Below, piece by piece: positions 4,698 to 23,673 of a stretch of DNA of 64,000 nt. This DNA comes from Pachyseris speciosa (Eukaryota; Cnidaria; Anthozoa; Scleractinia; Pachyseridae). The notes under the pieces are model-generated. The model ran no database searches. It saw nothing but the letters and a program-made list of their open reading frames with translations, and was not told the origin of the DNA. The stretch lies in the NCBI GenBank assembly GCA_016490735.1, contig JAEMWC010000252.1:517501-581500 (forward strand), in the 5' to 3' direction. The number at the start of each line of letters is the position of its first letter. The stretch's first letter is position 1. The translations under genes and the position numbers were made by a program.

Positions 4698-4745
4698 AGG
4701 TCAAGGTCACGTGATCCAGCACACTTTTTGCCAAGGTCAAGGTCA
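4698..4745 (+). promoter_or_regulatory. Two AGGTCA direct repeats (DR0) in the left TIR
   Basis: AGGTCAAGGTCA occurs at 4698-4709 and 4734-4745. Each is a zero-spaced direct repeat of the nuclear-receptor half-site, and the second half-site carries the TCA extension (TCAAGGTCA). The same 12-mers occur in the right TIR in inverted orientation. The sequence match is plain; a regulatory role is inference. Confidence 0.45.
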
Positions 4746-4765
4746 TCTATTTAAGTACTTTATGA

Positions 4766-4774
4766 TATAAAAAA
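4766..4774 (+). promoter_or_regulatory. TATA-like box for the VLTF3-like gene
   Basis: TATAAAAAA lies about 35 bp before the ATG at 4804 in the TIR. The identical box precedes the polymerase start at the other end. It differs in type and position from the TCTAA box used by the virion genes. Confidence 0.5.
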
Positions 4775-4803
4775 CACTTAAAGAAATGTCGCTTTAGGTT
4801 ATT

Positions 4804-5487
4804 ATGGAGAATGAAGAAAGAAATCTCCGGGCCTTGGAAAAGCCCTCTCAAATCAGGTCAGGTAGCCAGATGGTAAATGGCCTGTGTCAGAAAAATATTG
4901 GATCAGGTAGCCAGATGGTAAATGATTTTTGTAATCCAGATATTCACGAATATTTTGTTGAAGTAGAAAAATATCTAATATGTCCTTTATGTGATCAGAA
5001 GATAGCAGAACATAGTGTCAAAAATGAACCATGTTGTGATAATCAGAAAATGATTAATGACAATGGTGAAAATGTTTGTACAAATTGTGGTTCAGTCCAT
5101 GGTTATGATTATTGTAAGGAGTACGTTGACTTTCATAATAATATGTATAAAATAAAGCGGAAATCTATATATCATCGGAAGTACCATATTGAAAATGTGA
5201 TAAATGGTATATGTTGCAAGAATAGATTTCAAATTTCAGTAAAAGATAAGGGTAAAATATTAAGAATATTCAAGGAGATAGACACTATCATCCCTTCGGT
5301 GAATAAGAATCGTAAAAGAATGATAAACACCAAATTCATTCTGAAACAATTGTTTATGATGATGGATCTGCCTTATGAGTATATCATATTAACCAACTCA
5401 AAGAAAACACTGAAATTTTATAATCAATATTGGGTTGAGATTCTATTGTTAATATTTGATAAGATTATTCGTATTATCAAACAGTGA
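4804..5487 (+). CDS. VLTF3-like zinc-ribbon transcription factor (putative late factor)
   Basis: The first 41 residues are encoded by the TIR and are the same as the start of the polymerase. Then come CPLC (60-63), CC (77-78) and CTNC (92-95). The CC..CTNCG pair matches a TFIIB-type zinc ribbon. A YHRKYH motif (about 123-128) and a C-terminal ILKQL...YYxxxxEI-like region follow, the architecture of the poxvirus/NCLDV VLTF3 (A2L-like) late transcription factor family. In that family the protein directs late gene transcription. Here I infer that it activates the virion genes, which share a TCTAA box. The stop overlaps the end of the convergent gene at 5477-5962 by 11 bp. The family call rests on motif reading; a profile search against VLTF3 would settle it. 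Confidence 0.6.
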   Translation: MENEERNLRALEKPSQIRSGSQMVNGLCQKNIGSGSQMVNDFCNPDIHEYFVEVEKYLICPLCDQKIAEHSVKNEPCCDNQKMINDNGENVCTNCGSVHGYDYCKEYVDFHNNMYKIKRKSIYHRKYHIENVINGICCKNRFQISVKDKGKILRIFKEIDTIIPSVNKNRKRMINTKFILKQLFMMMDLPYEYIILTNSKKTLKFYNQYWVEILLLIFDKIIRIIKQ

Positions 5488-5962
5488 ATTTTTCATCATA
5501 TTTCAGTAGGTACTTATCAATAATTGGACTATTATCAACAACATAATCGTCTATGTTCTTCATTGTATTGTGTATGCTGGAATTATCAAAATTACCGCTT
5601 CTCATGGTTTCTTTTATTGTATTGAGAAGATGCTGGTAGCTTTGATAAGCATATGTACAATTCTGTATTTTCATGTCAAGGTTCTTGTGTTTCATCCAAC
5701 CTTGTATTAAAAGTGATACTGTACTGATGGCAACTAAACTAACACCACCAGTCGAAATACTTGCGGCGAGACCACCAGTTGCAAAGATGATGGACAAGGA
5801 ATTCCCCAGTAATTTCCATTTTTTGAACCGTTTAACAGCCTGTTTATAAGCCCAACACTTTCTGTGATATGTGAGGTAATAGGCTTTTAATTCATTTACC
5901 TGATCTTCTGTTAATTCACCTGAAATATGGTTCCAGCTGAATATGCTTTTTCGCTCTTTCAT
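5477..5962 (-). CDS. Small two-TM helical membrane protein (SLATT-like)
   Basis: This 161-residue protein has an N-terminal charged helix, then FKKWKLLG, two hydrophobic segments separated by a short Gly-rich turn (about residues 50-87: IIFATGGLAASI and VSLVAISTVSLLI), and a long amphipathic C-terminal half. Helices flanking a TM hairpin are the layout of SLATT-domain proteins, which form membrane pores, but the sequence match is not strong enough to be sure. It is the last gene of the leftward block and overlaps the VLTF3-like gene tail-to-tail. ATATAAG lies about 15 bp before the start. Function unknown. Confidence 0.55.
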   Translation of the reverse strand: MKERKSIFSWNHISGELTEDQVNELKAYYLTYHRKCWAYKQAVKRFKKWKLLGNSLSIIFATGGLAASISTGGVSLVAISTVSLLIQGWMKHKNLDMKIQNCTYAYQSYQHLLNTIKETMRSGNFDNSSIHNTMKNIDDYVVDNSPIIDKYLLKYDEKFTV

Positions 5963-5971
5963 ACAATATGC

Positions 5972-6391
5972 TTATATAACGATTCTGTTCAACACACAGT
6001 ACCACAAACCAGACAATTGTCCACTTAGAGGCGACAATTTGTTAAATTTCGTTGTCATGAAACGGGGGAAAGCATAAGAATATCCTCTGTCAAGTGAATG
6101 TTTGACATAAAACCTACCGAAGGCATCGTGTAATATACCATGTGTCTGTAATGTATCAATCCAACCAAGAGTATGCTCCAAAAAATGTGTTAAGCAGCCT
6201 TCACCGGGACCGATTAATCCAATGCCTATATGCTCCTGGATAATATCTCTCACTTCAATATATTTGTTGAAATGTTTGTGATATAGAAACTGGTAAACCA
6301 AAGCTGATTTCAAAATCCTCTTATCAACACCAAGGTTTTTCCGTTCAGCATCCCGAATGAACCATCGTACAAATCTTATAATCTGCTTCAT
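5972..6391 (-). CDS. Polinton hypothetical protein (139 aa)
   Basis: I do not recognise this protein. It is basic at its N-terminus (KQIIRFVRWFIRDAERK), has no predicted membrane segment, and contains HFLEHTLGWIDTLQTHGI and DAFGRFYVKHSLDRG-like segments that look like a folded globular domain. It sits between the LamG fibre gene and the membrane protein gene in one leftward cluster with gaps of 9 and 18 bp, so cotranscription is plausible. No TCTAA box is evident before its start. Confidence 0.6.
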   Translation of the reverse strand: MKQIIRFVRWFIRDAERKNLGVDKRILKSALVYQFLYHKHFNKYIEVRDIIQEHIGIGLIGPGEGCLTHFLEHTLGWIDTLQTHGILHDAFGRFYVKHSLDRGYSYAFPRFMTTKFNKLSPLSGQLSGLWYCVLNRIVI

Positions 6392-6409: not shown

Positions 6410-7345
6410 TCAAAGATCGAAATAATCTTCAAGGAAACGGAACATATTTTTTAATTCATCATTAGACAGAGATTTCTGCCAAACAGAAAAAGCGTACAGA
6501 TCCATTTCAGAAAAATTGACTGCAGTACCATCATCATTATCAACTTGACATCCAAAGAACATTTTTTGTGGATTTCCTGACAGTGTTGCTGAGATTGTTT
6601 CTGTTCCAACAGGAGTCATTGATGAAATACCTCTAAATAGTTCCATATTTTGTCCATTCACTCTTATTGTCCAAACCTCAATATTACCAGTCAGATCAGA
6701 CAAAGAAAGAGCAGCAAGTCTTCCATTTGATGTAGAACCGAAATCAATATAACATACTCCATCAATCCAAGGAAAATGAACACCAAATCGAATATTAGCC
6801 TGCCCCCATTGAAATTGAGATTGATTCTTCACTTGTTTTGTATTAACAACCATAATTACTGTGCATGTATTCCCATTTGGTCCAGCAACTTTGGATACAT
6901 CAAATGAATTTATTCTCAAGTAGTCATCAGTCCCATCGAATCGCAGAAAGAATCTCTTTTTATTTGAATCTCTCAACAGCAGAGGTTTTTTGGAATTATC
7001 AGTTTGTGTGAAAGATATATTATTGACAGGATCAACCCATCTTGAGACTCTATCGTTTGTATCAGATGTTAAAACAGAGAGAGCTGGGATGAGAGCAATA
7101 GAAATTCCATCAAGGACTGGTACACCAGGAAGAGAGTTGGAAATAACAAAAGTAGCTCTATCTAACTTCAGATCAAGTTGTTTTTTTGTGACACAATCAT
7201 TATCATCAGTTCCTTCATCAACATTTATCAATTTCTTATTGCTTCCAAGATCATAGTGGCCATCTTGTGTTAATGTAAATCCATCACCTTTATCACCTTT
7301 ATCACCTTTATTGTCTTGATTTAGTGAATGATTAAATACACCCAT
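6410..7345 (-). CDS. Collagen-headed fibre protein with C-terminal LamG/lectin-like domain
   Basis: The protein opens with MGVFNHSLNQD, a short collagen-like GDKGDKGDG stretch (about 14-22) and an LxxDGHYDLGSNK trimerisation-type segment. It ends with a beta-rich domain that finishes WQKSLSNDELKNMFRFLEDY, typical of concanavalin A/LamG-like jelly rolls. The MGVFN..NQD head is shared with the larger fibre gene upstream (7385-11016), so the two are paralogous at the N-terminus, probably the virion-anchoring part. A role as surface attachment spike is inferred from architecture. A TCTAAA box precedes the ATG. Confidence 0.65.
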   Translation of the reverse strand: MGVFNHSLNQDNKGDKGDKGDGFTLTQDGHYDLGSNKKLINVDEGTDDNDCVTKKQLDLKLDRATFVISNSLPGVPVLDGISIALIPALSVLTSDTNDRVSRWVDPVNNISFTQTDNSKKPLLLRDSNKKRFFLRFDGTDDYLRINSFDVSKVAGPNGNTCTVIMVVNTKQVKNQSQFQWGQANIRFGVHFPWIDGVCYIDFGSTSNGRLAALSLSDLTGNIEVWTIRVNGQNMELFRGISSMTPVGTETISATLSGNPQKMFFGCQVDNDDGTAVNFSEMDLYAFSVWQKSLSNDELKNMFRFLEDYFDL

Positions 7346-7362
7346 TATAATATTATTTTAGA
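7343..7362 (-). promoter_or_regulatory. TCTAA box before the LamG fibre gene
   Basis: On the minus strand TCTAAA is followed 11 bp later by the ATG of the 311-aa fibre gene in the context TATAATG. It is one of a set of matching sites before Polinton genes. Confidence 0.5.
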
Positions 7363-7384
7363 TTAATTCATGAAGACTATTGTA

Positions 7385-10300
7385 CTAGTTAATAATAAAT
7401 TCAAGCAAAAAGGACAAATCAAAAGCATTTGAATTGGGGTGTGAATAGTCAATGTAAAAGAAGCCATTATATAATTGTAGATTAATATCGACAGTTGTGA
7501 TATTAGGAGTATTACTAATTGTATAGCGCTTTGTTATTGACCTACTTACTTGTCCATCTCTTTTATTTACGAACACAAGTATTCCAGTTCCAGCGTTTTG
7601 AATAATGTGTAAACGTTTGAAATAATAATTGTTTAAAACAACCATCTGTTTTCCCCCATCAATTAAGACAGTTTTCAACACATTCGAGTCATGGTTTTGT
7701 TTGACTTCAACGAAGGCATTTATATAAATTGTTTGACCAATTATTCTATTCCCATTCAAATCTAGATCACCTCCTAATTTCGGCCTGTAAAGAGCAAATC
7801 CACCCAAATCGAAAGCCGTTTCCATAATTACACCTGTAACGCTTGAACGAAATAGATTCAAACTATTATTATGAATTCTATAGCCATTCATATTTAAATC
7901 ACCACCAAGTTTAGCCTCTTTTATTAGAAACGTGTTCATATTAATATCATTTAGCATTGTCAATTCACCATTTTGACCGTCGAATAAGTTTGATGAATTA
8001 TTAATCAAGGCATGTCCATTCAAATCTAAATCAGTTTGTAATTGTATTTTTTCATTCACGATTTTATAAGCTTCTGCGAAGTCGTAAACACTTGATGGAA
8101 CGTCTACAGCTTCAAAATCAATACCATATGCAACACAATGAACTTTGTACTTATTTGGATAAGTTGGGTTAGCATTAATATGAATCGTACAATATAAATA
8201 TTCAGGTGGTGAACTTGCTGATGGTTTTTCAATCCATAATAAATATCTCGAATGATCTTCATTTCTGTTATCAAATTTTCTCCCTACAGTTTTATGAATT
8301 GTAATTCCACCAGTTGCACTGAATGTTACACTACTAAGATTCATTCCTTCATAATCAGGAAATAGCCATTCAAGAATGAAAGTGTATTTTCCATCTTTTA
8401 TTGTGTACATATTAAATCCAATTCTAGCTCTGTAAATATGATTAGCTTCTTTATTCAAGTCTATATCAATGACCTTTTTTGAAATCAAATGTGGTGAACG
8501 AGGTAAATTGACATATCCATTGACTTTCAAGCCATATTCAGTACTGACTTCATCAATATCATTCATCAAATATTTGAAAGCATTCTTTGGATGAGAAGCA
8601 GATGAAATATGACTTTTTTCTAATTGATCTAAATTTACAGCATCGGTTTTATTTGTTCCTTCTTTTAAGTTAATGATTTTATGCCCTCCAAGTTTCATAT
8701 CTGCTGCCATCGCATTTGTTCCATTCAATAATAAAGTGTTTGCTCTGATAGTTTGTGAAGCTCGATTTAAAACTCTAAAGTTTACAGCATCAGTTTCATT
8801 CACCACATCCGCTAAATTCGTCAATTTATTTCCACCCATCGACAAATCGCCATACATTGCAGTCGAACCGTCTCGTCGGAGAAAATATTCGTCAGTATAA
8901 CGTTTTGTCGCCGCATCGTCTGCGTTGACGGGTGGAGCAAGATCAGTAATGGAATTATTGTTCATATTCAGATTTTGTTGTGCAATCGCATCGAGTTTGG
9001 TTTGCAACCTCTGGTCCACATAACTTTTGTTTACAGCGTCTTGTGGGTTTGAGGGGTTATCCTGCAGGTTGAGGATTTTGTTCAATTTCATGTCAATATT
9101 ACTACCAAACGCAACATGGCCGTTTTCAATTTCATAAGCTGGGTCATGGAGAAAGTAAGACAAATTGGTATGATAGCCATAAGCCCCATAAACAATGATA
9201 TGTGTTTTGGTGTTAGACGCAGGAGCTGTGCTGGAAAGTTCCACCTCAATCGCCGCTTGACCACCACTTCTTTTTTCTATCTGGAAAAGAATTTTAATAT
9301 AACCATCAACGTGTGGAGTTCTAGTAAAAGCTTTTTGAAATGACAGTCCAGCGTCACGCATATTAATTGTTGGAAGGGTTAAACTGATTGCAGCACTTCT
9401 TGGATTAGATGGTGAGTAAAACTCAACAACAAAAGTGTACTGACTGTTTCTCAAAGATGCCACATTAAAACGAATTTTGGATGTGAAGTTGCCTCTTCGT
9501 TTGATGAAAAAAGACAATGATGACTTGTTTATGTGATAAGGTGATCTGTTAAAATTCTCAATTTGAAGGTTTTCCACACCACTGACTGCAGAAGACTTGG
9601 ATATGTCTTTTAACAGAAAAGCGAATGGGTTGCGTTGAGTACCAGATGCTGATAAAATAAGGTCATCAACATACTTTTTATTGGCAGAATCTTTATCAGA
9701 GTTTGGAGATCCAACATTTGTTATTTTATTGTCACCCATGACAAGATCACCGGTCATTGCAACACTTCCATCTTTTTTAAGAAATGGTGAAACATCAATG
9801 CCAGTAATTCCAGCAATTTCAGTATCAACATACCCCTTTGTAGCTGAATCATTGTTTGCTGTTGGTGCTGCTACATTAGTCAATTTGTTACCTCCAAGAT
9901 TCAAATCAGAAGTCATCGCAACACTTCCATTTAGTTTCAAAAAATTATTGTTCACATAGTTTCTATTTACAGCTGAATAACCAAATCTTGGGTTATCTGG
10001 TATGCCAAACAGATCATTTCTATTCATGCTAACAGGTGCATAAATCACACCGCCTGTGTTTATATTAAGGAAATCAGCCAGTTCATCATCAACATATTTT
10101 TTGTTTACAGCATCTTGTGGGTTTGAGGGGTTATCCTGCAGGTTGATGATTTTGTTTAATTTCATGTTAATATCACCACCGAATACAACATTGCCGTTTT
10201 CAATTTCATACACTGGGTCGTGAATATGTGATAAAATGATATTAGAAAATCCATAAACACCATAAACTATGACATGATGTTTTTTATTATTTTGTAAATA

Positions 10301-11016
10301 TGGTGAAATCAACAATAACTCCATTGATGTCTGACCAACTCTCGTTTTTTCAATGAAGAATATTCTCTTGAGATAACCATCAACAAGATGAGTCTTTGGA
10401 AATGCTCTTTTTATTGAATTCTTTCTTTCAATTAAATTAGATGACAGATTGTCGTCATCAACTGTTGCATTGTTTGGGCTACCATCAGTATAAAACTCAA
10501 CAACTAAAGTGTACTTTGAAACTTCCAATTGTGACAAATCAAAACGAAGAACAGTTGTAAGACCAGCAGAAGGAATAACAAAAGACAAGGCTTTTTTATT
10601 TATTGAGTAAGGGCTTTTATTATAGACTTCTAATTGTAGATTATTCGCATTTCTAAGAATAGTTGTTTTTGATACATCTTCAAGAAGAAATTTAAATGGA
10701 TTAACACGTGTTCCTTCAATTGATAAAACAGCATCATTAACATATCCCAAGTTAGTAGAATCATAATGATTTACTGGATCATCAATATTTGTCAAACGTT
10801 TATTTTCAATGTCATAATTACCATCTTGTGTTAATTTGAATCCATCACCTTTGGGACCAACAGCTCCAGTAGCTCCTTGTGGACCAATTGCACCTGTATT
10901 ACCTTTTGGGCCTCTATCACCTTTTTCACCTTTGGGACCAATTGGACCTGCAGGGCCTCTTTCACCAGTTCCAGTTTTTTTTTATCTTGATTTATTTGAG
11001 CATTAAAAACTCCCAT
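7385..11016 (-). CDS. Large fibre protein with phage-tail-fibre-like repeats (one frameshift)
   Basis: About 1,200 codons. The start at 11016 (MGVFNAQINQD) leads into a nine-T run (10975-10983). Beyond it the collagen-like Gly-X-Y stretch and the rest of the gene lie in another frame, so the head is off frame in this copy. The body has at least six repeats of the form LxLGGNKLTNVxxPxxxxDA(A/V)xKxYVD, the pattern of phage tail fibre shafts. Repeated beta-rich blocks lie between them, around (F)KFLLEDxSK and HDPxYEIENG. This suggests a long trimeric fibre; attachment is the likely role. The gene is second in the leftward block, next to the ATPase. The T9 break may be a mutation, an assembly error or a slippage site. 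Confidence 0.7.
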
Positions 11017-11033
11017 TATATCATCTTGTTAGA
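11014..11033 (-). promoter_or_regulatory. TCTAAC box before the large fibre gene
   Basis: On the minus strand TCTAAC (11028-11033) is followed 11 bp later by the ATG at 11016 in the context TATAATGGG, the same arrangement as before the LamG fibre gene. Confidence 0.5.
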
Positions 11034-11075
11034 TTAATCTTCCAATTGTTGATTGCCATATAATATTAGATTAGA

Positions 11076-11714
11076 TTAAACAGCACCATAAAAATTTCTC
11101 TTGATTGTCTTCATCGGCTTGTCAACATAACAGAAGGAATAAGGTTTCTTGGTGGCTTCAATGTATTTCTTCTTGTCTATTCCAAGTTCTTGTGCAATCA
11201 AGTTCCTTTCTCTTGAGGATGGGAAATCATAAAGGCAGAAGTGACTGCAATTGAGTCTGATTGATTTTGGGCATCCATAGAATGACTGTGTGAGATATAT
11301 GACTGAACAGTTCTTGTGTCTCCCCTGAATGAAATAGCTGATTATTTGATCTTGTTTCTTGTCAGTCACGAAATCATCAAAAACAACCAATCGCTGCAAA
11401 TTTGTGTCTTTTATTTGTTCAACTGGCAATATCTCTTCTTGACTGCAAACCAAGGCAGGATATCCAATGTGACTGCTTATTTCATCCATTACTTTCCGAA
11501 GATATTTATACTTGTCTTGATCCAAATTTTTTGCATAAAGATGTATCTGATCATAATAAACCAACGGTTCCATAATCAGATGCATGAACAATGTTGTCTT
11601 TCCAGATCCAGAATTACCAGCCAGCAGCATCCTGAATGTATCTTTTGGCATATACGGATACAACTGTCTGAATGAATTCTTTAAACCCTGAATATCATAA
11701 TTAGGGATTTCCAT
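11076..11714 (-). CDS. FtsK/HerA-type genome-packaging ATPase (A32-like)
   Basis: The 212-residue protein has Walker A GNSGSGKT (33-40) and Walker B LVVFDD (109-114), then a TQSFYG-type sensor segment. This is the compact P-loop ATPase of Polintons, virophages and NCLDVs that pumps DNA into the capsid. Length is typical for the family. The reading frame is intact. It is divergent from the gene starting at 11751, with 36 bp between the two start codons, and that gap holds TCTAA boxes in both directions. It heads the leftward block that continues with the fibres. Confidence 0.9.
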   Translation of the reverse strand: MEIPNYDIQGLKNSFRQLYPYMPKDTFRMLLAGNSGSGKTTLFMHLIMEPLVYYDQIHLYAKNLDQDKYKYLRKVMDEISSHIGYPALVCSQEEILPVEQIKDTNLQRLVVFDDFVTDKKQDQIISYFIQGRHKNCSVIYLTQSFYGCPKSIRLNCSHFCLYDFPSSRERNLIAQELGIDKKKYIEATKKPYSFCYVDKPMKTIKRNFYGAV

Positions 11715-11753
11715 ATGTAAATAGTTTAGATTAGTCTAACACAATTGTATATG
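11712..11753. promoter_or_regulatory. Divergent late-type promoter with two TCTAA boxes
   Basis: TCTAAA on the minus strand (11725-11730) is 10 bp from the ATPase ATG, and TCTAAC on the plus strand (11735-11740) is 10 bp from the ATG at 11751. Both starts end in TATATG or CATATG. Only 36 bp separate the two start codons, so this stretch must hold both promoters. Confidence 0.55.
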
Positions 11754-12556
11754 GATATAGAACGAATGAAAAGGCTTCTAAAAGTGGAATTGAAGCTGGA
11801 AATAAAACTAGAGAAGTTCGTGATGTTATCAAGACTTATGAATACAGAAAACAGGATGCTTATGATACAACATCAGAATTACTGAAACCCTCTATTGATG
11901 TCCAGAAGAGTGTGAAAGAAAGTGTCGACAAAAAACAGGATGAAGTCATTAAACAGTTGAAAAAGAATCAACAGGCTTTAACACAAGGACTTGATGATGT
12001 TATTGAAGCTAATAGAAGAGCTATTACAATGGGAACGGAACTTCCTAGAGCCATTGAAGCATCTGAAAAAGAGGATCGGACACCCAACATATTATCGATC
12101 GATAACTATTTCGATAAAGATGACAGAATTATATTAAAAAATAACAAGCTTTTAAAGCCTAGCGAGTTAACTCAAGTCACCCCACAAAAACTTATTGAAG
12201 AAAGGGAGAAAGCTGCAGAAAAAGCCAGGGATATGGCAAGAAGAAAAAAAAAATCATTCACTCCAGAAGAAAATGAATCTCATAAAAGAGAAATACAAAC
12301 TTTGAGGAAATACAGAGAAACGATTTCAGATGTATTAGCTTCTTACAAATACAAAACAGGGAAAGGAATGGGTTCAAGGGATGCATTTTTGGGTGACATG
12401 CTTTCACGTTTACAGTTACTTGGTGGATCTATTTCAGCCGGCAACAACAGCAAAAATGTTCAAAATGAATTCACAAAAATATTGCATACATTGAACAGAC
12501 TGGGAATCCTGAAAACCGGTGAGCTAAATAAAATAATGATGAAATATCTAATGTAA
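11751..12556 (+). CDS. Coiled-coil Polinton protein of unknown function (frame break near start)
   Basis: The main open frame is uninterrupted from 11735 to 12556 but has no ATG at its 5' end. The well-placed ATG at 11751, next to the TCTAAC box, is in another frame, so a single-base break probably lies within about 11752-11762. The product is highly charged and helical (KSVKESVDKKQDEVIKQLKK and similar), with EREKAAEKARDMARRKKK in the middle and a conserved-looking C-terminal segment with LLGGSISAGNNSK. It heads the rightward block and precedes the minor capsid gene by 6 bp, which suggests a structural or assembly role. Not recognised as a named family. Confidence 0.6.
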
Positions 12557-12565
12557 AAGTATATG
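12547..12565 (+). promoter_or_regulatory. TCTAA box before the penton-like gene
   Basis: TCTAAT at 12547 overlaps the end of the upstream coding region and lies 10 bp before the ATG at 12563, which is in the context GTATATG. Confidence 0.4.
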
Positions 12566-13347
12566 ACAGAAATTTCATTACGATTCAACAGTAAAAACAG
12601 AGACAAAATTGGTGTCAGCAAGAGTCATGATTTTGAAAAAAGATTCAATACACCTCTTAAATTAACGAATGATTTGAAATATGAAATGGCTGTGAATGTC
12701 ATCAATATGACATACAGTTGGTACAATATCAGAGATATTTTTGGGAATAATCAAATTAAATACAGCTATGACAAAGGTGTAAACTGGGAAACAATAACAT
12801 TCGTTAACGGGATGTATTCATACGACGATATCAATAGTTACATTCATGAGTATATGAGAAAAATAACCATGTACTGAATCCATCTGAAACAGACAAATCA
12901 AAATTCAAGTATGGTATTAACATGTATTTCGTTTTGTCAACATATCGCATTTTGATTGAACTTGATGAAAACTATCATGTGGATCTGAGGAATCTTGATT
13001 TCAGAAAACTTATCGGTTTCGATTCAAAATTAGTTCCAGCCACAGAATATGGAACAAATCTACCTGATATTACAAGAGGAGTAGATGAAATTTATATCAA
13101 TTGTGATTTGGTGACAGATAGCATTGTTGATGGAAATAGCACAAATACAATCGCTGTTATTCCTGTCACAGATCTCGTTAGAAGTTTACCTTTCACTTAC
13201 AAACCTCGTTTTCTTTCATGGAATCCTGTCTCAACACATACAATCAGCTCAATACGTTTTTATGTCACTGATTCTTCTAGAGCTCCAGTCGATTTAAATG
13301 GGATAGATTGGTATATTGAGTTGTTCTTGAGAAGTGTGGAATTATAA
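12563..13347 (+). CDS. Minor capsid (penton-like) protein, one frameshift
   Basis: Two frames together cover about 260 codons. The first (12563-12877) starts MTEISLRFNSKNRDK and carries the N-terminal strands. The second continues from about 12865 to 13347 and ends with RFYVTDSSRAPVDLNG and IDWYIELFL, as in Polinton penton-like single jelly-roll proteins, which occupy capsid vertices. The break is at an A5 run (12859-12863). The gene lies in the conserved order minor capsid, basic protein, major capsid, which supports the call. The overlap of the two frames and absence of other stops point to a single indel. Confidence 0.72.
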
Positions 13348-13360
13348 AACCTAATAGTAT

Positions 13361-13597
13361 ATGAAACGGTTTGAGTTTAAAAAATATGAACAACATGGTG
13401 AAGGTATTGTGACTGATATGATCAAAACAGCTGGAAAAAAAGCAGCAACAACAATTGGTGAACATGCTGGCAAAAAAGCTGGCGACAAAATCATAGAACT
13501 TTTGAAAAAGAGAAAGAGTGGAACTGAGAGTGTGAGCCAGACTGGTGGTTTAATCAAAAGAAAGAGAGGTCGACCTCGTAAAATAACTTTTATCTAA
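13361..13597 (+). CDS. Small basic virion protein with AT-hook-like tail
   Basis: This 78-residue protein is strongly basic, with an amphipathic centre (GEGIVTDMIKTAGKKAATTI) and a C-terminal KRKRGRPRK that matches an AT-hook or nuclear localisation signal. Its position between the two capsid genes and its charge suggest DNA condensation or a membrane-active core protein like adenovirus pVI/pX; this is inference. The start follows CCTAATAGTATATG, a variant of the TCTAA box. The stop TAA is part of the TCTAAC box of the next gene. Confidence 0.6.
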   Translation: MKRFEFKKYEQHGEGIVTDMIKTAGKKAATTIGEHAGKKAGDKIIELLKKRKSGTESVSQTGGLIKRKRGRPRKITFI

Positions 13598-13611
13598 CAC
13601 AATAATATATG
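13593..13611 (+). promoter_or_regulatory. TCTAAC box before the major capsid gene
   Basis: TCTAAC (13593-13598) lies 10 bp before the ATG at 13609, with ATATATG at the start. The TAA of the box doubles as the stop codon of the preceding gene. Confidence 0.5.
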
Positions 13612-14897
13612 TCAAACTATCGTGACTCAAAATATATCGAAAGATATGAAGATGTAGTGTTCGAACTAGAGACAGCACTTAATACTGTAGTAGCAAACAA
13701 TGCTCATCAGAGTAAAACAGGTTACCGTTTCATTGTTGATAACAGTGGAGAGACTACACCATTTGACTGGTATAATGCCCGTTTTAATGTCGATTTCATT
13801 GTAAAGAAGCTTGCAGATGGAGCTGACATTGCTGCAGGAGATCGAAATGGTATTGTTAATTCAGTTCACGCTCTTATTAACACCATTAATGTGAAAATGA
13901 ATGGTCTTGATGTTTATGAGTGCAGAGATGCCAACCAAGCCACAAATATTAAGTCATTGCTTGAGTATTCACAGGGTTATGCTGTAAGTCAGGGAACCAA
14001 TGAGTTCTTCTATCTTGACGACAAAAGACAAGCTGATGATAGAGTTGCCCAGGTGGCTACTTATAACAAAGGTTTCGCAGCTCGTAAAGCACTGTTGAAT
14101 GGTGCAGCCGGTAAAGTAAATGCAGAGCTTGCATTGAACAGATACGGTTTTTTCAAGAGCTTTTGGGATGAACTTATGCCTAACTCAAAAGTAGAGATAA
14201 AATTGACACTTGAGAGTGATGCCAATTTGATTTGGCAAGCTGCCGATGATTGCCGTGTGGTACTAACTAAATTCCAGCTAATAGTTCCTCGCATTGTTTT
14301 TAATTCTGCGGGAAAGTCCTTATACATGAGCAAGTATCTTGACAACAGAAAGTGGACTTACATGAGAGAAATGGTTGAGAGAGGCAATTCAACAAGACAA
14401 CAGACTGCCAATTTCCGTATTTCCACAGGAATAAACAAACCCAGGCATGTCTTTGTATTCATCATCAATGATGCAAGTGATGCATCTCAGACAGCCAATA
14501 AATTTCTCTATAACACCTTTTCAGTTGCAAATAACCAAACTTTGACTGATTGTTATCTTGAGGTTGGCAACGGAATGATTATCCGGAGGTCCATTATAAA
14601 CCATCAACAGAACCAACAAGAGTATTTAGAGATGTTTTGAAATATGTTCAAGCTGTAAATGATTTCAGTGAAAGTACCCTTCTTAACAGGGGCAATTTCG
14701 GTACAATATTCCCTTTCATTTACTTTGATCTGACAAAACAGAAACAGGATATCAAAGATGGAATGACAAAACTGACTTTCAAATACACTTTGAGTGATGG
14801 AACAAATGCTGATTACAGTGTGTATGCATTGGTCCTCTATGAGCAGGATATTGAGATGAGAAAGACTGATGGAAAATTAATTCTGAGATCTACGTAA
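13609..14897 (+). CDS. Major capsid protein (double jelly-roll, hexon-like), one frameshift near 14578
   Basis: The first frame (343 codons) starts MSNYRDSKYIERYEDVVFEL and contains the long N-terminal jelly roll, the loop region LLEYSQGYAVSQGTNEFFY, and the second-roll strands LIVPRIVF and RHVFVFIIND. The C-terminal part (LLNRGNFGTIFPFIYFDL, then YALVLYEQ) is in another frame that ends at 14897. Reading both frames back, they swap at about 14575-14583, so one base is missing or extra there. Combined length about 430 codons fits Polinton double jelly-roll major capsid proteins. Position directly after the basic protein and before the protease region supports the call. Confidence 0.8.
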
Positions 14898-14983
14898 ATT
14901 AAATTAATTAAATAAAAAAAAATTGAATAATTAAATTAAATGATTGTTTGTATTAAATACAATTTAGTATAAACATATATTAT

Positions 14984-16285
14984 ATGACTACTTATCATCC
15001 TCATGGAGTAAGACTTTCAAACAGTCAGAAGCAAAGGCTTGCAAAAGCTATACAAACAAATTCACCGGTAACATTGAGACTCGCACATGGAGATCTCACT
15101 GGAGGTGATCAAATGATGTTGACAAAAACACAGATAAAAAAATTAGCCAAATCACAGAGAAATGGAACAGGTGCTGATGTAAAGATATCCAAAGCACAGA
15201 TCAGAAAATCAGTCCAAGAAGGAGGTTCTCTTTGGTCCAGTCTTTTTTCACTTGGAACAAGACTATTGCCTTATGCAGGTAAAGCAGTAGCTAAAGCGGC
15301 TCCAGCATTGGCTACAGGTGCTCTTTCTTCATTAGCAAGTCTCGGCATTGATAAACTATTTGGAAAGAAACAAAAAGGAGGATTTCTTATTCCTAATGCC
15401 AATTTATCCCAATTATTGAATGTAGGAAATTTATTGAATACGAGACAGATGGCTGATGTTATCCAAAAAATGCAGTATGGTGGAGACGTTGTTATAAAAC
15501 CAACAAAAGCGCAGACTGGAAAGGGTATTGGAACAATACTCGCCAGCATTGGAATTCCTTTGGCTATAGAAGCAATCAGAAAATTAACTGGAAAAGGTTT
15601 GCATGTTGAAAGCAGCCGTCCAAGACGGTCAATACCTGTTCATGTTCCAGATGACATTGTACCCAGAAAGAAAGGTGGGAAACATGCTATGATTCCATGG
15701 CAATCTCCTCCTGTTTTTGGTACATGGAATAACCCAATCGGTTATGGAATGAAAAAAAAAAACCAAAGGAAAAGGACTTCTACTGGGCAAAAACAGTCCA
15801 TTCAATTCAATCCCCATACTAGGAACCATTTTGTAAACAAACCCTTATCCAACTTTGATTTAATCAATTGGGTTAAACAACTTGGAATAAAACATTTTAG
15901 AGGAGTATTTTCAAGAGACAATCTTCCTAGACAAATAAAAAAGAATGAATGTGGGATAGTCAATCTCGACAGTAAGATTGGACCTGGTACTCACTGGGTA
16001 TGTTATCGAATTGGTGATAGATACTGTGAATACTTTGACTCATTTGGTTTGATGATGCCAACAGAAGTACAGAAATACATGGCTACAAGTGGAAAACAAC
16101 TTGAATACTCTGGAGATGAGATTCAAGAGAGAGATTCAGTCTTGTGTGGATATTGGTGTTTATACTATTTATTGGAAAGACAGAAAGGGACCCCCATATT
16201 GAAAGTCATTCATAATGCAAAATTCAATCCCACAGACACAAGAGTCAATCATAGATTCATAATCAATTATTTCAAAAATATGTAA
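14984..16285 (+). CDS. Membrane-active pX/pVI-like protein joined in frame to adenain-like cysteine protease
   Basis: Residues 1-255 are basic and hydrophobic (LPYAGKAVAKAAPALATGAL; KISKAQIRKS) like minor virion proteins. Residues 285-433 are an adenain-type protease with His337 (GTHWVCY), Asp352 (YFDSFG) and Cys388 (SVLCGYWC); it would mature virion proteins. The two meet at an A11 run (15752-15762). Past that run the alternate frame reads GLLLGKNSPF and soon stops at about 15836. That looks like a proper C-terminus of the first protein, so the in-frame fusion is probably produced by a one-base change in the A-run. Two overlapping genes are the likelier ancestral state. Catalytic residues are intact. 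Confidence 0.8.
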   Translation: MTTYHPHGVRLSNSQKQRLAKAIQTNSPVTLRLAHGDLTGGDQMMLTKTQIKKLAKSQRNGTGADVKISKAQIRKSVQEGGSLWSSLFSLGTRLLPYAGKAVAKAAPALATGALSSLASLGIDKLFGKKQKGGFLIPNANLSQLLNVGNLLNTRQMADVIQKMQYGGDVVIKPTKAQTGKGIGTILASIGIPLAIEAIRKLTGKGLHVESSRPRRSIPVHVPDDIVPRKKGGKHAMIPWQSPPVFGTWNNPIGYGMKKKNQRKRTSTGQKQSIQFNPHTRNHFVNKPLSNFDLINWVKQLGIKHFRGVFSRDNLPRQIKKNECGIVNLDSKIGPGTHWVCYRIGDRYCEYFDSFGLMMPTEVQKYMATSGKQLEYSGDEIQERDSVLCGYWCLYYLLERQKGTPILKVIHNAKFNPTDTRVNHRFIINYFKNM

Positions 16286-16294
16286 TGTATATGT

Positions 16295-16573
16295 ATGTCT
16301 GTTAAGTTAAACAAAAACAGTGGGATAATAAAAGTCAGCAAATATTACGCGTGCTATAATGAGAAAGAATACTTTGATCCATCAGGACAGGAGATACCTG
16401 CTCAAATGGAGAAAAAGAATTGTTTCAATGAATCAATGAGTATTAGAGATCCGTTATTGAGTAAACAATGGTGTTTGTACTACCTTTTAGAACGTCAGAA
16501 AGGTACTATGATATTAACAATATTATTTGATGATAAAAGATTTAATAAATTTCTATCTAACATAAAAGTATGA
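16295..16573 (+). CDS. Degenerate second copy of the protease C-terminal region
   Basis: The 92-residue product contains YFDPSGQEIP and QWCLYYLLERQKGT, closely resembling the YFDSFG and YWCLYYLLERQKGT segments of the protease just upstream. The catalytic His segment is absent and the active-site CGYWC has become KQWC, so it cannot be an active peptidase. It is probably a tandem partial duplication that has diverged. It may be translated (ATG follows TATATGT) or be a remnant. Its stop overlaps the next small frame by a few bases. Confidence 0.5.
   Translation: MSVKLNKNSGIIKVSKYYACYNEKEYFDPSGQEIPAQMEKKNCFNESMSIRDPLLSKQWCLYYLLERQKGTMILTILFDDKRFNKFLSNIKV
16556..16572 (+). promoter_or_regulatory. 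TCTAAC box before a small gene
   Basis: TCTAAC (16556-16561) lies 8 bp before the ATG at 16570, the same arrangement as before the capsid genes. It supports the small frame as real. Confidence 0.4.
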
Positions 16574-16725
16574 TAGAATTCGAAATAATTGATGATGTTA
16601 ATATATTTGTTATAATAGTTGTCAACAGATTGATTGGTTTACGAGTTGTAATCAAATGCACTTTGGATAATATAACAGTATTCTATGACAAACTTAGTGG
16701 AAATGTATGTCGATTTAACTACTAG
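16570..16725 (+). CDS. Small Polinton protein (51 aa), hydrophobic centre
   Basis: The frame opens at an ATG 8 bp after a TCTAAC box and encodes MIEFEIIDDVNIFVIIVV, a possible membrane segment, then a basic segment, and stops at 16723-16725. It is too short for homology calls. The upstream box and close packing (4-bp overlap with the preceding frame) are the only support. Function unknown. Confidence 0.35.
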   Translation: MIEFEIIDDVNIFVIIVVNRLIGLRVVIKCTLDNITVFYDKLSGNVCRFNY

Positions 16726-16831
16726 ACAAAGAAAGAAGATCAAGAAAGCTAATGAAATTGATAAAATAATTAATATCAGATTGAAAACAGAGCAGGTGAT
16801 AAATTGTGGAAAGCTATTTTATCCAACTTAA
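16703..16831 (+). CDS. Small basic Polinton protein (42 aa), doubtful
   Basis: The frame starts MYVDLTTRQRKKIKKA and ends at 16831, overlapping the previous small frame by 23 bp and ending 5 bp before the next ATG. It is Lys-rich, as small virion DNA-binding peptides are. There is no clear promoter box and no recognised family. Included only because of the tight packing. Confidence 0.25.
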   Translation: MYVDLTTRQRKKIKKANEIDKIINIRLKTEQVINCGKLFYPT

Positions 16832-16836
16832 TATAT

Positions 16837-16992
16837 ATGAGATCATATTGTGTGAAACAGAAGAAAGTCACTGAATGTGTACCAGGAAGTGAAAGATATC
16901 AAAAGACAAAAAATGGTCGAACTGTGATGAAATGTACTTGTGCTGAATGTGGAATCACAAAAACTAAATTTGTCAGAAATCGGGGAAACTGA
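16837..16992 (+). CDS. Small zinc-ribbon-like protein (DUF5679-like)
   Basis: Starting at the ATG in ATATATATG, the 51-residue product reads RSYCVKQKK, then KTKNGRTVMKC and CAECGITK. YCVKCKK...NGR...C..CG is the pattern of the small DUF5679-type zinc ribbon found in viral and mobile elements. Here the second Cys of the first knuckle is Gln, so metal binding may be partial. I chose this start over the upstream GTG at 16804 because of the ATATATG context. Function unknown. Confidence 0.5.
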   Translation: MRSYCVKQKKVTECVPGSERYQKTKNGRTVMKCTCAECGITKTKFVRNRGN

Positions 16993-16995
16993 ATA

Positions 16996-17014
16996 GCCCG
17001 TCTGAAGGGCGGGC
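16996..17014. other. Short GC hairpin between small genes
   Basis: GCCCG and CGGGC form a 5-bp stem around a 9-base loop just after the stop of the zinc-ribbon gene, in otherwise AT-rich DNA. It might be a 3'-end or regulatory structure. Confidence 0.25.
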
Positions 17015-17035
17015 ATACTAGATTCAGCCGCAGAT

Positions 17036-17674
17036 ATGGCGCTAACAGGATTCTTAGAACATGGAGTCCCTTATTTAGCAAAGAAAGGTGTAGAAATGGG
17101 AAGATATTATGCTTCAGAAGCAATGAGAAATCCAAAGCTGCAAAAGAAATTAATTGACAAAGGACTTTCCCTCGCAAAGCCTGCAATCACAAAGGTTGGG
17201 TCAGAAGCTTTGAAACAACTCTCAACAAAAGTGAGACCAAATATTCGTTACAAAACAGATATCAAAGGATTAGATTATGGCGGTGCTATTGACATCCATA
17301 AGGTAATTGGCAAGCTTCCTAAACCAAAAGCAGGTTGGACACCAAGTAAATATAAATATATGGGACCATACAATCCATTGCATGAGCAGTTGGAATATGA
17401 TCCAAATACTGGCGAGGTCTTGAAATGGAATGTACAACCTTACAATAAGGTGGATGAAATAGCAGCTTACCACGATATTTGTTATGATATGGGAAAAAAT
17501 AAAGGTGAATGTGATAGAACAATGGTCGAGTCACTAGATCAAATACCATATGGTGAGATGCCAAAATGGGGTCAAACAGCTAGATTCTTAATCGACAAAA
17601 AACAGAAACTTGGTCTCGGTGTTTCAAAAAACGGAAAAAGCCGTCGAGTGAAGAAAACTGGCAAGAAAAACTAG
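17036..17674 (+). CDS. PLA2-like virion protein (parvovirus-type phospholipase A2 motif)
   Basis: The 212-residue protein carries a calcium-loop motif YMGPYNPL (108-115) and a catalytic helix DEIAAYHDICYD (140-151) with the His-Asp pair, the signature of secreted and parvovirus VP1-type phospholipase A2. In parvoviruses this activity breaches endosomal membranes; the same role here is inferred. The C-terminus is Lys/Arg-rich and overlaps the 5' end of the integrase frame. The N-terminal 70 residues are amphipathic. The frame is intact. Confidence 0.75.
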   Translation: MALTGFLEHGVPYLAKKGVEMGRYYASEAMRNPKLQKKLIDKGLSLAKPAITKVGSEALKQLSTKVRPNIRYKTDIKGLDYGGAIDIHKVIGKLPKPKAGWTPSKYKYMGPYNPLHEQLEYDPNTGEVLKWNVQPYNKVDEIAAYHDICYDMGKNKGECDRTMVESLDQIPYGEMPKWGQTARFLIDKKQKLGLGVSKNGKSRRVKKTGKKN

Positions 17675-18593
17675 CTGATGAATTACATGCACCCATAAAA
17701 CGAAATTTCACTCGGCGGCGTGTGATTGTAAATAAAATTGATGAAATATGGGCAAGTGATCTAGTTGAAATGCAACAGTTTAGTAAATGGAATAAAGGTT
17801 ATCGATATCTTCTTATGGTTATTGATGTCTTCAGCAAATATGGTTGGATTGTCCCATTGAAGGATAAGAAAGGTGAATCTGTCACTGAAGCATTCAAAAC
17901 AATATTCAAGGAAGGCAGAAAACCACAGTATTTATGGGTCGACAAGGGAAAAGAGTTTTACAACAAACACTTGAAGGACCTTTAGAGAAACATAGTGTAC
18001 AGATGTACTCAACTGAGAATGAAGAGAAGTCATCAGTAGTTGAAAGATGGAATAGGACAATTAAGTCCAAAATGTGGAAGCAGTTCACTGTTCAAGGTAA
18101 TACACAGTATTTAGACATGTTACCAAAATTAGTGAAACAGTATAACAACACAAAACATTCAAGCACAAAGATGACACCCGTTGAAGCATCTGATAAGAGG
18201 AATGAAGGAACTGTTTACTTCAATTTGTATGGTGATATGGAGCCATTAAAACAGAAACTAAAATTTAAAATAGGTGATAAGGTCCGAATATCCAAGTATA
18301 AACGGATTGTGTTCGACAAGGGCTATACACCAAATTGGACAGAAGAAGTGTTTATAGTTGATAAAATCCAATACACTAATCCAATAACATACAAACTAAA
18401 AGATCACAACGATGAAGAAATTGAAGGGAGTTTTTATGAACCTGAGTTATTAAAAGCCAGACAGGATGTATTCCGCATTGATAAAGTCATTCGCAGAGAT
18501 TACAAGAAGAAACAAGCTTTGGTGAAGTGGAAGGGTTATAGTGACGACTTTAACAGTTGGATACCGATCAAGGATTTAAAGAAAATTATCTAA
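17641..18593 (+). CDS. Retroviral-type integrase with C-terminal chromodomain, one frameshift
   Basis: DDE residues are visible: Asp in IWASDLVEM, Asp in YLWVDKGKEFYN, and Glu in EEKSSVVERWNRT. An integrase C-terminal barrel (FKIGDKVRISK) follows. The last 45 residues (FRIDKVIRRDY...ALVKWKGYSDDFNSWIP) form a chromodomain. The first frame stops at 17985; the second covers the rest. The swap is at the T3 run 17981-17983. Coding similarity continues upstream of the first usable start through LADELHAPIKRNF, inside the end of the PLA2 gene, but no ATG is found, so the true start is uncertain. It catalyses insertion of the element with 6-bp duplication. Confidence 0.85.
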
Positions 18594-18605
18594 CATACAT
18601 GTATG
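18589..18605 (+). promoter_or_regulatory. TCTAAC box before the BRO-N gene
   Basis: TCTAAC (18589-18594) overlaps the integrase stop codon and is 8 bp before the ATG at 18603 (context TGTATG). Confidence 0.45.
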
Positions 18606-19391
18606 CAAAAATATTCCTACGATAATAAAGAATTAGATGTTTCAATAGATTGTTATCTTGATGATAAAAACGATATATGGTTCAGAGGAAGAGACATTGC
18701 TATTATTCTCGACTATAAAAATCCACAAAAAGCAATCAAGGATCATGTTTTATCTGATGATAGAATCTTAAGAGACCACAAAATAAGCATAAATTCACGA
18801 TGTAACAAAACGTTACCTCGTGCTGAGACCATTGAAAAAACTTTCAAATGTTTTTTTATAAATGAATCAGGATTTTATTCACTAATACTGTCCTCTAAAA
18901 AACAGGAAGCCATTAAATTCAAACATTGGGTTACATCAAAAGTATTACCATCAATCAGAAAACAGGGATATTACAAACAGTTCAATGACAGAAGTAATAA
19001 CATGCTGATGATTGGAAGTGAAAATGATCTGCACTGCAAGATTGTTTCATTCATCAGAAAGAAATATGAAGACGCATTAATGATAGCCGGTTTAGGTGAA
19101 AATCAAATAAGCTCAAATATGAGAATCAGAAGTTATAACAAAGGATATATGTCTGGACAATGTGATTTGATGTTAATGAATCCCACCAGAAAATACAATG
19201 CTCTTTGTCTTGAATTCAAAAGTCCCACTGGTGTATACCAAGTGTCGGAAAAACAAACAAATATGAAGCAAATGTATGAGAAAAACAAGTGCAAATACAT
19301 TATGAGCAATTGTTTTGAAGATTTAATTTTTGAAATAACCAAACACATGGAAGAAAGCAAATTGTATTTATCACGTATAAGAAAAGACTAA
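18603..19391 (+). CDS. BRO-N domain protein with C-terminal VRR-NUC-like nuclease
   Basis: The N-terminal half has the BRO-N hallmarks: DIWFRGRDIAIILDY, then INESGFYSLILSSKK and FKHWVTSKVLPSIRKQGYY. BRO-N domains bind DNA and are common in large DNA viruses. The C-terminal half reads GENQISSNMRIRSYNKGYM, GQCDLMLM and LCLEFKSPTGV, with D...E-x-K spacing like VRR-NUC/PD-(D/E)XK nucleases. The combination suggests a replication or recombination accessory enzyme. It is the last gene of the rightward block, reads intact, and follows the integrase by 9 bp. Confidence 0.7.
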   Translation: MQKYSYDNKELDVSIDCYLDDKNDIWFRGRDIAIILDYKNPQKAIKDHVLSDDRILRDHKISINSRCNKTLPRAETIEKTFKCFFINESGFYSLILSSKKQEAIKFKHWVTSKVLPSIRKQGYYKQFNDRSNNMLMIGSENDLHCKIVSFIRKKYEDALMIAGLGENQISSNMRIRSYNKGYMSGQCDLMLMNPTRKYNALCLEFKSPTGVYQVSEKQTNMKQMYEKNKCKYIMSNCFEDLIFEITKHMEESKLYLSRIRKD

Positions 19392-19397
19392 CTTTTA

Positions 19398-19415
19398 TCT
19401 AACCTATATATGTGA
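19398..19415 (+). promoter_or_regulatory. Orphan TCTAAC-TATATG box
   Basis: TCTAAC at 19398-19403 is followed by TATATATG, but the next codon is TGA. No gene follows on this strand before the convergent polymerase gene. It looks like a promoter that has lost its gene, or a start for a transcript without a protein. Confidence 0.35.
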
Positions 19416-22400: not shown

Positions 22401-23355
22401 TTATTCTCTGAGGGTTCTTCTCTTGTGGATTCAAGTGCCTGATATGACACCATCTGAAACATTCATTGTCATCATTCTTTATGTTAATCAATCCCTTCAT
22501 TACATTCATTAATTCTGGGGGTAGTTTAATATATGATGAGCCTTTCATTGGCTGATATATTACAACATTTAGAAAATGCTTGTCGACTGATTCCACAACC
22601 CAGCCAGATCCTTCTGAAATCCAAACTGCAATCTTATTTAATATATTTTGTTTTGACGCTTGAAGTGATTCACTGATCTGGAGATTATTTATAATTGTTT
22701 GAGGTGGACTGTTGAAAAAGGCTGTTTTATATATTATTTCACCATCAGACATTTTTCTGAATGTTACCTTTAGTGTTTCAACGAATTTCAGTCCTTTCAT
22801 TGATTTTAGTAAACTTACAAGACGGTACGCTACAGCCTTTCTTGTGTTTTGCAGTTGTAATAGCGGGTCTTTGTAATTTTTGATATCTATTTGAAATGAT
22901 TTGGTGTATCCTTTGAGAGCTTTATCTGTTTGCTCTATCTTAGTCCTTGGTTCTGGTATTGGGGCTAGTTTTTTAGTTCTTGGTGCTGGTACTGGTCTAT
23001 CTCTAAATTGTGGTGGTGGAAGAATTATGTTGTCTTCATAATCTTTAACCATCTGCTTCACATTCTTGCGAGGTGCTGGAATTGGCTTCTGCTTTTTGAT
23101 GTTATCAGCGAGACTAACTAATTGCCTCATCTCACCAACATCCATACGGCCTAATCTTTTCAATAATTCTTTGAAAATACTATTTCTATTTTCCATGTCT
23201 ATACTATTAGGATATATAATTTTTTGACTCGGATCATTTACCATCTGGCTACCTGATCCAATATTTTTCTGACACAGGCCATTTACCATCTGGCTACCTG
23301 ACCTGATTTGAGAGGGCTTTTCCAAGGCCCGGAGATTTCTTTCTTCATTCTCCAT
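19466..23355 (-). CDS. Protein-primed DNA polymerase B (pPolB), one frameshift
   Basis: The N-terminal part (858 codons) has the TIR-encoded leader, Pro-rich PxPAPR repeats (about 91-140), a C2H2-like finger (412-434), exonuclease motif I (YADFEAL, 469-475), an HNH/endonuclease VII-like insert (CHICDKKY...DHCHITGQYRG, 568-594) and exonuclease II (FHNLRGYDSHF). The C-terminal part has motif A DANNLYGWAM, motif B KLMNNSVFGKT and motif C DTDS. The frames swap at the C3 run 20841-20843. All catalytic motifs are present. Polintons use it to replicate by protein priming. The start at 23355 lies in the right TIR, 31 bp from a TATA-like box. Confidence 0.93.
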
Positions 23356-23385
23356 AATAACCTAAAGCGACATTTCTTTAAGTGT

Positions 23386-23395
23386 TTTTTATATC
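23386..23395 (-). promoter_or_regulatory. TATA-like box for pPolB
   Basis: GATATAAAAA on the minus strand, about 31-40 bp before the polymerase ATG, is the inverted copy of the box at 4766-4774. Confidence 0.5.
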
Positions 23396-23413
23396 ATAAA
23401 GTACTTAAATAGA

Positions 23414-23673
23414 TGACCTTGACCTTGGAAAATGGGAAAATGCCGTTCTACCTGAATACTGCTCATATATACTAATTATCGCTTAGAATGTTGAAATTAG
23501 CTGTTTCTCGACGAATACTACTCAAATATGCTCATTCCGCTTAGAATATTGAAATCAGCCGTTTCTCGACGAATACTACTCAATTCTTTCATTCATCATC
23601 CTGATGCCTAAAATATTGAAGTATTCTGGGAGAAAACGCTAATTTTAGATTTTGGAAAATTTGACCTTGACCT
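23414..23673 (-). promoter_or_regulatory. Two AGGTCA direct repeats (DR0) in the right TIR
   Basis: TGACCTTGACCT on the plus strand occurs at 23414-23425 and 23662-23673, the inverted equivalents of the left-end sites. They flank the extra 230 bp in this TIR and lie upstream of the polymerase. Confidence 0.45.

Follow-up and report, generated by a model that had tools for sequence, protein, structure and literature searches.

The window analysed here, a stretch of 64,000 nucleotides (nt) from Pachyseris speciosa (contig JAEMWC010000252.1, positions 517,501 to 581,500), contains a Polinton/Maverick element in which a short box, TCTAA, lies just upstream of the ATG of about half of the genes and probably forms the core of a late promoter. 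The element is bounded by terminal inverted repeats (TIRs) at about 4621–4926 and 23233–23749, with outer arms of 72 nt (96%) and inner arms of 200 nt (100%), as expected of a Polinton. Its left part carries a VLTF3-like gene (4804, plus strand), two small minus-strand genes, fibre-type genes, with a YadA-type stalk found in a fibre-type frame of 979 amino acids (aa), and a Pox_A32 packaging ATPase (11714, minus strand). On the plus strand follow, in order, a gene starting at 11751, a penton-like gene, p79, the major capsid protein (MCP), a protease, small genes, a PLA2-like gene, an integrase and a Bro-N gene, and PolB runs on the minus strand from the right TIR (ATG at 23355). The integrase matches Pfam rve (1.1e-8) and Chromo (1.4e-8) in two frames. 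The names penton, MCP, protease and PolB are those we assume from gene order; none of these frames has a Pfam match bearing such a name, and no Pfam domain was found in any of 120 listed sequences among 1980 MCP homologues. Several genes are broken in the window copy, with the frames of the 11751 gene, penton, MCP, integrase and PolB each in pieces, and no RNA polymerase was recognised among the element's open reading frames (ORFs) scanned. The features on which the argument turns are as follows.

4727..4926, plus strand: left inner TIR arm, 100% complementary to 23233–23432, spanning the putative early promoter and the first codons of both TIR genes
23233..23432, minus strand: right inner TIR arm
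4804..5487, plus strand: gene for the putative VLTF3-like late factor, driven from the left TIR
11076..11714, minus strand: packaging ATPase (Pfam Pox_A32, 6.5e-17)
13609..14640, plus strand: MCP, frame interrupted near its end (343 aa; about 430 in most listed copies)
14984..16285, plus strand: protease gene, without a Pfam match, presumably so by Polinton gene order

A preliminary description of this DNA had placed TCTAA followed by C, A or T next to the ATG of most virion genes. Inspection of the sequence bore out the box at all eight starts that it had listed, namely 7345, 11016 and 11714 on the minus strand and 11751, 12563, 13609, 16570 and 18603 on the plus strand. The gap between TCTAA and the ATG is 9–12 nt, or 8–11 nt when counted from the hexamer, as had been described. 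The start itself, said to read TATATG, TATAATG or CATATG nearly always, does so in six of the eight boxed genes, while those at 16570 and 18603 read GTATG. The boxes are listed below.

7358..7362, minus strand: TCTAA box, 12 nt before the fibre gene ATG at 7345
11029..11033, minus strand: TCTAA box, 12 nt before the ATG at 11016 (collagen-like fibre, opening with MGVFN as does 7345)
11066..11075, minus strand: tandem TCTAATCTAA, past the ATPase stop codon and upstream of the ATGs at 11059 (short ORF) and 11016
11726..11730, minus strand: TCTAA box, 11 nt before the packaging ATPase ATG at 11714
11735..11739, plus strand: TCTAA box, 11 nt before the ATG at 11751
12547..12551, plus strand: TCTAA box, 11 nt before the penton-like gene ATG at 12563
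13593..13597, plus strand: TCTAA box, 11 nt before the MCP ATG at 13609; its TAA also terminates the p79 frame
16556..16560, plus strand: TCTAA box, 9 nt before the ATG at 16570 (51-aa ORF, a doubtful gene)
18589..18593, plus strand: TCTAA box, 9 nt before the Bro-N gene ATG at 18603; its TAA also terminates the integrase frame
19398..19402, plus strand: orphan TCTAA box (TCTAAC), 7 nt before an ATG, with no ORF

The ATPase box and the 11751 box stand back to back within a divergent intergenic region of 36 nt. Between 11751 and 12556 a frame shift breaks the gene in the window, and the copy at another locus, L087, runs on in the frame of its own box-preceded ATG. The orphan box lies between Bro-N and PolB; within 19398–19412 it is accompanied by TATATATG and an immediate stop codon, and it is perhaps the promoter of a lost gene.

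Of the element's 17 gene starts, 8 have TCTAA at 9–12 nt; of its 840 remaining ATGs, 5 do (Fisher 4e-12). In the test set in advance, against AT-matched control ATGs (at least 70% AT), the box was found at 2 of 298 (5e-10), so the claim of enrichment was upheld. A 14-start list drawn from ORFs and homology, which leaves out 11016, 11751 and 16570 and was compiled with the box already known, gave 5/14 against 8/843 other ATGs (6e-7) and 5/301 AT-rich ones (2e-5). With the same list, TCTAA at 9–12 nt had the lowest P (2.5e-7) among 5-mers present at three or more starts over 27 positions, which becomes about 0.007 when the 27,648 tests are corrected for. An initial, less stringent k-mer scan, covering the 30 nt upstream of 19 ORF starts, placed ATCTAA as the top 6-mer at a borderline 9e-5, uncorrected.

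About half of the starts (8/17) are thus boxed rather than most virion genes, as the preliminary description had it. In the window, the protease (14984), p79 (13361) and PLA2-like (17036) genes lack TCTAA, and the gene at 16837 has TCCAA. TATAA lies 9–13 nt before the ATG at 3 of 17 starts (protease, p79 and a SLATT-like gene), compared with 4 of 298 AT-rich ATGs (P 0.004). The enrichment over AT-matched ATGs, together with the genes that carry TATAA, TCCAA or no box, indicates that the TCTAA box is real but not universal. The two genes starting in the TIRs (4804, plus; 23355, minus) have no TCTAA box, and the TATA box that had been put near −35 is a TATAAAA starting at −38 in both, confirming the distinction drawn earlier.

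14968..14972, plus strand: TATAA, 11 nt before the protease ATG at 14984, at the box position
13343..13347, plus strand: TATAA, 13 nt before the p79 ATG at 13361
5972..5976, minus strand: TATAA, 9 nt before the SLATT-like gene ATG at 5962
16822..16826, plus strand: TCCAA variant, 10 nt before the ATG at 16837 of a Cys-rich 51-aa gene
4766..4772, plus strand: TATAAAA in the TIR promoter, at −38 relative to the ATG of the VLTF3-like gene (4804)
23387..23393, minus strand: identical TIR TATAAAA, −38 from the PolB ATG at 23355

Because the identical inner TIR arms extend into coding sequence, the VLTF3-like protein and PolB begin with the same residues and have a common promoter. Most aligned relatives of the factor, and also the one at locus L089, open otherwise (for example MSC..). 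At L089, a second VLTF3-like start, TATAAAA lies at −32 and TCTAA is absent. In promoters of RNA polymerase II (Pol II) the TATA box and the start site are some 30 nt apart, a spacing with which the TIR genes would agree, to judge from −38 at the ATG, and the boxes at −12 to −16 would not.

Scans of IMG/VR (with MCP, with the ATPase, and with alignments of ATPase, VLTF3 and MCP) and a further scan of genome contigs found no relative, and tblastn against phages gave no match for the ATPase and only two matches at E 1 for MCP; conservation could therefore be assessed only among copies in the window's own genome. This genome (984 Mb) holds at least 118 MCP copies (118 of 4674 candidates scored). 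We read 60 MCP loci, 30 of 118 from one listing and 30 of 98 from another, which are 81–100% identical to the window MCP; most of L001–L030 are 96–100% identical, and near-identical loci were not counted as independent evidence. TCTAA precedes MCP in 59 of the 60 loci and TCTA in all 60, L060 retaining only the shorter form. At the penton gene, 57 of 58 loci have TCTAA no more than 30 nt upstream and the remaining one has TCCAA (loci with a usable start; two are left out here and one for p79). The ATPase box is kept in all 17 readable loci of this clade, hereafter clade 1 (20 fetched of 150 listed; L071 was unreadable, and L076 and L079 belong to a second clade described below), and in two of the 17, L062 and L069, the box of the partner gene is TCCAA.

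The surroundings of the box have diverged. Upstream of MCP, mean column identity (27 distinct upstream 40-mers out of 60 loci) is 63% at −40..−23, 91% at −22..−17, 97% at the box and 93% at −11..−1. Corresponding values for −40..−23 and the box are 85 versus 99% for penton, 74 versus 95% for the protease and 82 versus 98% for p79, the last two being boxes of the TATAA type (ATG starts only: 60 MCP, 56 penton, 59 protease and 56 p79). The contrast is smaller for penton because coding sequence lies upstream. As the preliminary description required, the box is therefore conserved in related elements of the same clade. In the divergent family of L031, TCTAA is found at all six starts read (MCP, penton, p79 and protease, with the ATPase and its divergent gene read from L087 on the same contig; L088 landed in penton-gene sequence and was uninformative). 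As p79 and protease carry TCTAA in L031 and a TATAA-type box in most copies, TCTAA and TATAA apparently share one slot and turn over. N-terminal extensions of database proteins, too few to be used as evidence, include P0354 (MCP), which fits TATCTAAY at 11 nt, and P0004 (ATPase), for which a fit requires 13 nt.

A contrast is offered by another Polinton clade of this genome, clade 2 (C273 and C84; loci L081–L086). In the best pieces its ATPase is 45–48% and its MCP 32–35% identical to those of clade 1, and its GC content is 49–51%. C84 has homologues of the ATPase, penton, MCP, protease, PX and PLA2 in the clade-1 order, and C273 covers ATPase to MCP plus PolB and integrase. At none of the 11 clade-2 starts examined, two uncertain ones included, does TCTA occur within 40 nt. 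Of 9 starts, 7 have a TATA no further than 25 nt from the ATG, compared with 38 of 798 other ATGs, three distance ranges having been tried; the set of nine omits the protease, whose frame was found without an opening ATG, and the uncertain 'divergent gene' of L081. Upstream of the protease, both clades have TTTAGTATAA. The 15.7 kb read of C84 and the 12.5 kb read of C273 yielded no VLTF3, the best profile match having E 0.073. In several cases the start-abutting TATA of clade 2 follows a T run.

The gene at 4804 has 116 homologues in the protein collection, and 19 of 22 aligned family members match Pfam PF04947 (Pox_VLTF3) at E 0.01 or better (best 3e-10), which points to kinship of the family with VLTF3. 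The zinc-ribbon cysteines C60, C63, C77, C78, C92 and C95 are invariant or nearly so in the 22 sequences. The AlphaFold model of the factor (mean pLDDT 72) has a helical C-terminus, with a block at pLDDT 80–95 from residue 131. Its four best fold matches in BFVD come from giant viruses or poxviruses, three bearing the name of a late factor, and are weak (E 0.009 and above); those named as VLTF3 have E 0.015 and above. Foldseek against the PDB gave no match at E 0.001, a PDB sequence search with the VLTF3 family, ATPase and MCP gave nothing useful, and NCBIfam and PHROGs returned no VLTF3 name.

In the host genome, 84 VLTF3 matches of mixed families exceed the Pfam cut-off. Comparison of 23 of them, picked by eye as sharing a contig with a listed MCP match, showed that 15 lie 8.5–8.9 kb upstream of the MCP match on the same strand, matching the window layout, and two further pairs are 10.7 and 12.2 kb apart. 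The 15 pairs spaced as in the window suggest that the VLTF3-like gene is a regular part of clade-1 elements. At L083 (C743:34500–41500), a VLTF3 gene that scores 3e-20 against Pfam and is unlike the Polinton family lies near apparent Polinton fibre pieces; this locus is possibly a giant-virus remnant in the host genome.

The late promoter of poxviruses is a TAAAT initiator that overlaps the ATG. The element resembles it in having a short A/T-rich element abutting the ATG and in encoding its own factor of the VLTF3 family, and differs from it in that no TAAATG occurs at the eight starts and no RNA polymerase was recognised. The closest parallel in the literature is the TCTA motif with AT-rich flanks of CroV late genes and type-4 EMALEs, including mavirus, which two papers propose as a late promoter (PMC8547959, PMC5294985). 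The motif is common to ChlorV and CroV in sequence and position (PMC13196603), and a response to CroV was seen only in EMALE type 4, the motif-bearing type (PMC10945749). The window element has the same core in AT-rich surroundings upstream of its genes. Unlike those systems, it is an animal Polinton with a VLTF3-like factor of its own and has TCTAA, here 9–12 nt from the ATG; the likeness considered concerns core and flanks.

Polinton-type elements with a VLTF3 are not without precedent, since excerpts of PMC11244446, a paper of 2024, list one in adintovirus-like regions of Amoebidium. These regions are likewise Polinton-related, with MCP, PolB and VLTF3; they differ in that the host is a protist and the factor is merely listed, with no promoter box described in those excerpts. 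VLTF3 forms the single protein cluster common to all giant viruses analysed in one study (PMC8715426), another 2024 paper considered VLTF2 and VLTF3 undetectable outside the giant-virus phylum (PMC11253617), a VLTF3 stood isolated among metazoan genes in the cnidarian Exaiptasia (PMC5294986), and cnidarian MCPs were placed outside the main Maverick cluster (PMC10120064). Among the open-licence papers searched, no report of a late-promoter box in Polintons was found; 'promoter' and 'VLTF' are absent from the Polinton papers PMC4642659, PMC11071308 and PMC10120064, and PMC8097293 has 'promoter' in unrelated passages only.

These results lead us to favour, with some reserve, a model in which TCTAA in an AT-rich stretch 9–12 nt before the ATG is a clade-specific late-promoter core that is probably served by the element's VLTF3-like factor. 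The element would have two promoter classes, the TIR TATA (TATAAAA at −38) and the start-abutting box of the inner virion-type genes, which is TCTAA, or TATAA in the case of the protease, p79 and the SLATT-like gene. From the two ends of the element the TIR promoter would drive PolB and the VLTF3-like factor as an early pair; the factor, once made early, would be needed for the TCTAA promoters and would probably recognise them or recruit the polymerase to them. Transcription may begin in the AT stretch just upstream of the ATG, giving a leader of a few nucleotides. As no RNA polymerase was recognised, the enzyme would come from the host or a helper virus, and we take host Pol II to be likelier than a giant-virus enzyme. 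We infer the link between factor and box from the family of the factor, its early-type promoter and the contrast between the clades.

Several observations weigh against this model. PLA2, p139 and p92 have none of the boxes. TCTAA is found at the protease in only 3 of 60 loci (L031 and L035 at 11 nt, L060 at 13 nt) and at p79 in only 1 of 59, and at exactly −16..−12 in two distinct protease sequences and one distinct p79 sequence, indicating that virion genes can do without it. In two of the eight cases the TAA of the box is the stop codon of the preceding gene. The loci compared are copies within one genome and not independent, and near-identical ones add little. The window copy of the factor does not match Pox_VLTF3 and reaches only Zn_Ribbon_TF (the TFIIB zinc ribbon) at E 0.004, below the cut-off, so that the earlier statement that the element encodes a putative late factor gains support through the family, though not from a match of this copy. 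The coupling of factor and box rests on one two-clade contrast in which the clade-2 elements were read over part of their length, and the start-abutting TATA of clade 2, without a detected VLTF3, implies that such a box need not depend on VLTF3. The proposal of a candidate late promoter is thus supported in part: the box is enriched and conserved within the clade, but it is not universal, is replaced by TATAA or TCCAA at some virion genes and is absent from clade 2.

An alternative is that the element depends on a helper, TCTAA being a copy of the late promoter of a giant virus in the same animal, with virophage-like expression by the late machinery of that virus and a VLTF3-like gene captured from it. 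The TCTA of CroV and of mavirus/EMALE04 is explained in this way, by use of CroV transcription, in PMC8547959, PMC5294985 and PMC10945749. The host genome also holds seven VLTF3 matches at 8e-10 or better against Pfam, the MCP-paired ones being at 8e-6 and weaker, and L083, the strong match that was read, reaches only 0.042 with the Polinton-family profile. However, a VLTF3-like gene kept alongside MCP in at least 15 copies would be superfluous for a pure hijacker, and TCTA is absent from the 60 nt next to the single VLTF3 start of giant-virus type that was read. We consider helper dependence improbable.

The boxes might instead be a host Pol II core promoter, with TCTAA and TATAA as initiator- or TATA-like elements used by host factors and VLTF3 acting elsewhere. 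The interchange of the two motifs in one slot at protease and p79 agrees with this, as does the start-abutting TATA of clade 2 without a detected VLTF3. The geometry does not: a TATA 12–16 nt before the ATG, with a start 25–30 nt downstream, would initiate inside the coding sequence, and it is the TIR genes that show TATAAAA at −38. We give this explanation a small chance as well.

A signal at the RNA level, either a translation-start context or a branch point (CTAAC) for leader trans-splicing, appears very unlikely. TCTAAC does match the metazoan branch-point consensus and adjoins the ATG, and three of the eight starts (11016, 12563 and 16570) have an AG in the gap that follows the box; such an AG is missing at the other five (7345, 11714, 11751, 13609 and 18603), 9–12 nt is short for a branch point, and the TATAA variants and the clade-2 starts without the motif do not fit. 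Chance or shared descent, whereby AT-rich gaps and TAA stop codons yield TCTAA and close copies mimic conservation, could draw on the 81–100% identity of MCP loci from one genome, the two boxes containing a stop codon and the borderline loose scan, but it is already disfavoured and hardly credible, given that the enrichment holds in AT-matched tests, that the MCP flanks diverged to 63% with the box still at 97%, and that TCTAA occupies the same slot at protease and p79 of divergent copies.

Polintons have often been suggested to connect virophages, adenoviruses and giant viruses. Under the model of a late-promoter core served by the element's own factor, TCTAA and a VLTF3-like gene suggest an early-to-late programme like that of large DNA viruses, and the core shared with CroV and mavirus, along with the factor that the element itself encodes, allows the idea that animal Polintons transcribe their late genes autonomously to be put to the test. 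The box also bears on the direction in which mavirus would have borrowed its promoter. A broader conjecture, which we regard as rather unlikely, is that a TCTA late promoter and VLTF3 are old equipment common to animal Polintons, mavirus-like virophages and giant viruses. Polinton-type viruses would then direct their own early/late cascade, with a late factor of their own and a polymerase encoded elsewhere; mavirus need not have borrowed the promoter of CroV, and clades would change between TATA-type and TCTAA-type late boxes with gain or loss of the factor.

Some features of neighbouring genes may be added. The SLATT_1-like gene at 5477–5962 has a Pfam E of 0.0013, below the cut-off; a frame possibly resembling it by eye lies near the integrase end of clade 2, where tblastn at 1e-3 gave no link. 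The Bro-N gene (18603–19391; Pfam 8e-24) has a weak VRR_NUC-like C-terminus. Directly before the PLA2-like gene, at 16996–17014, a GC-rich, hairpin-like stretch was seen by eye, the gaps elsewhere being AT-rich.

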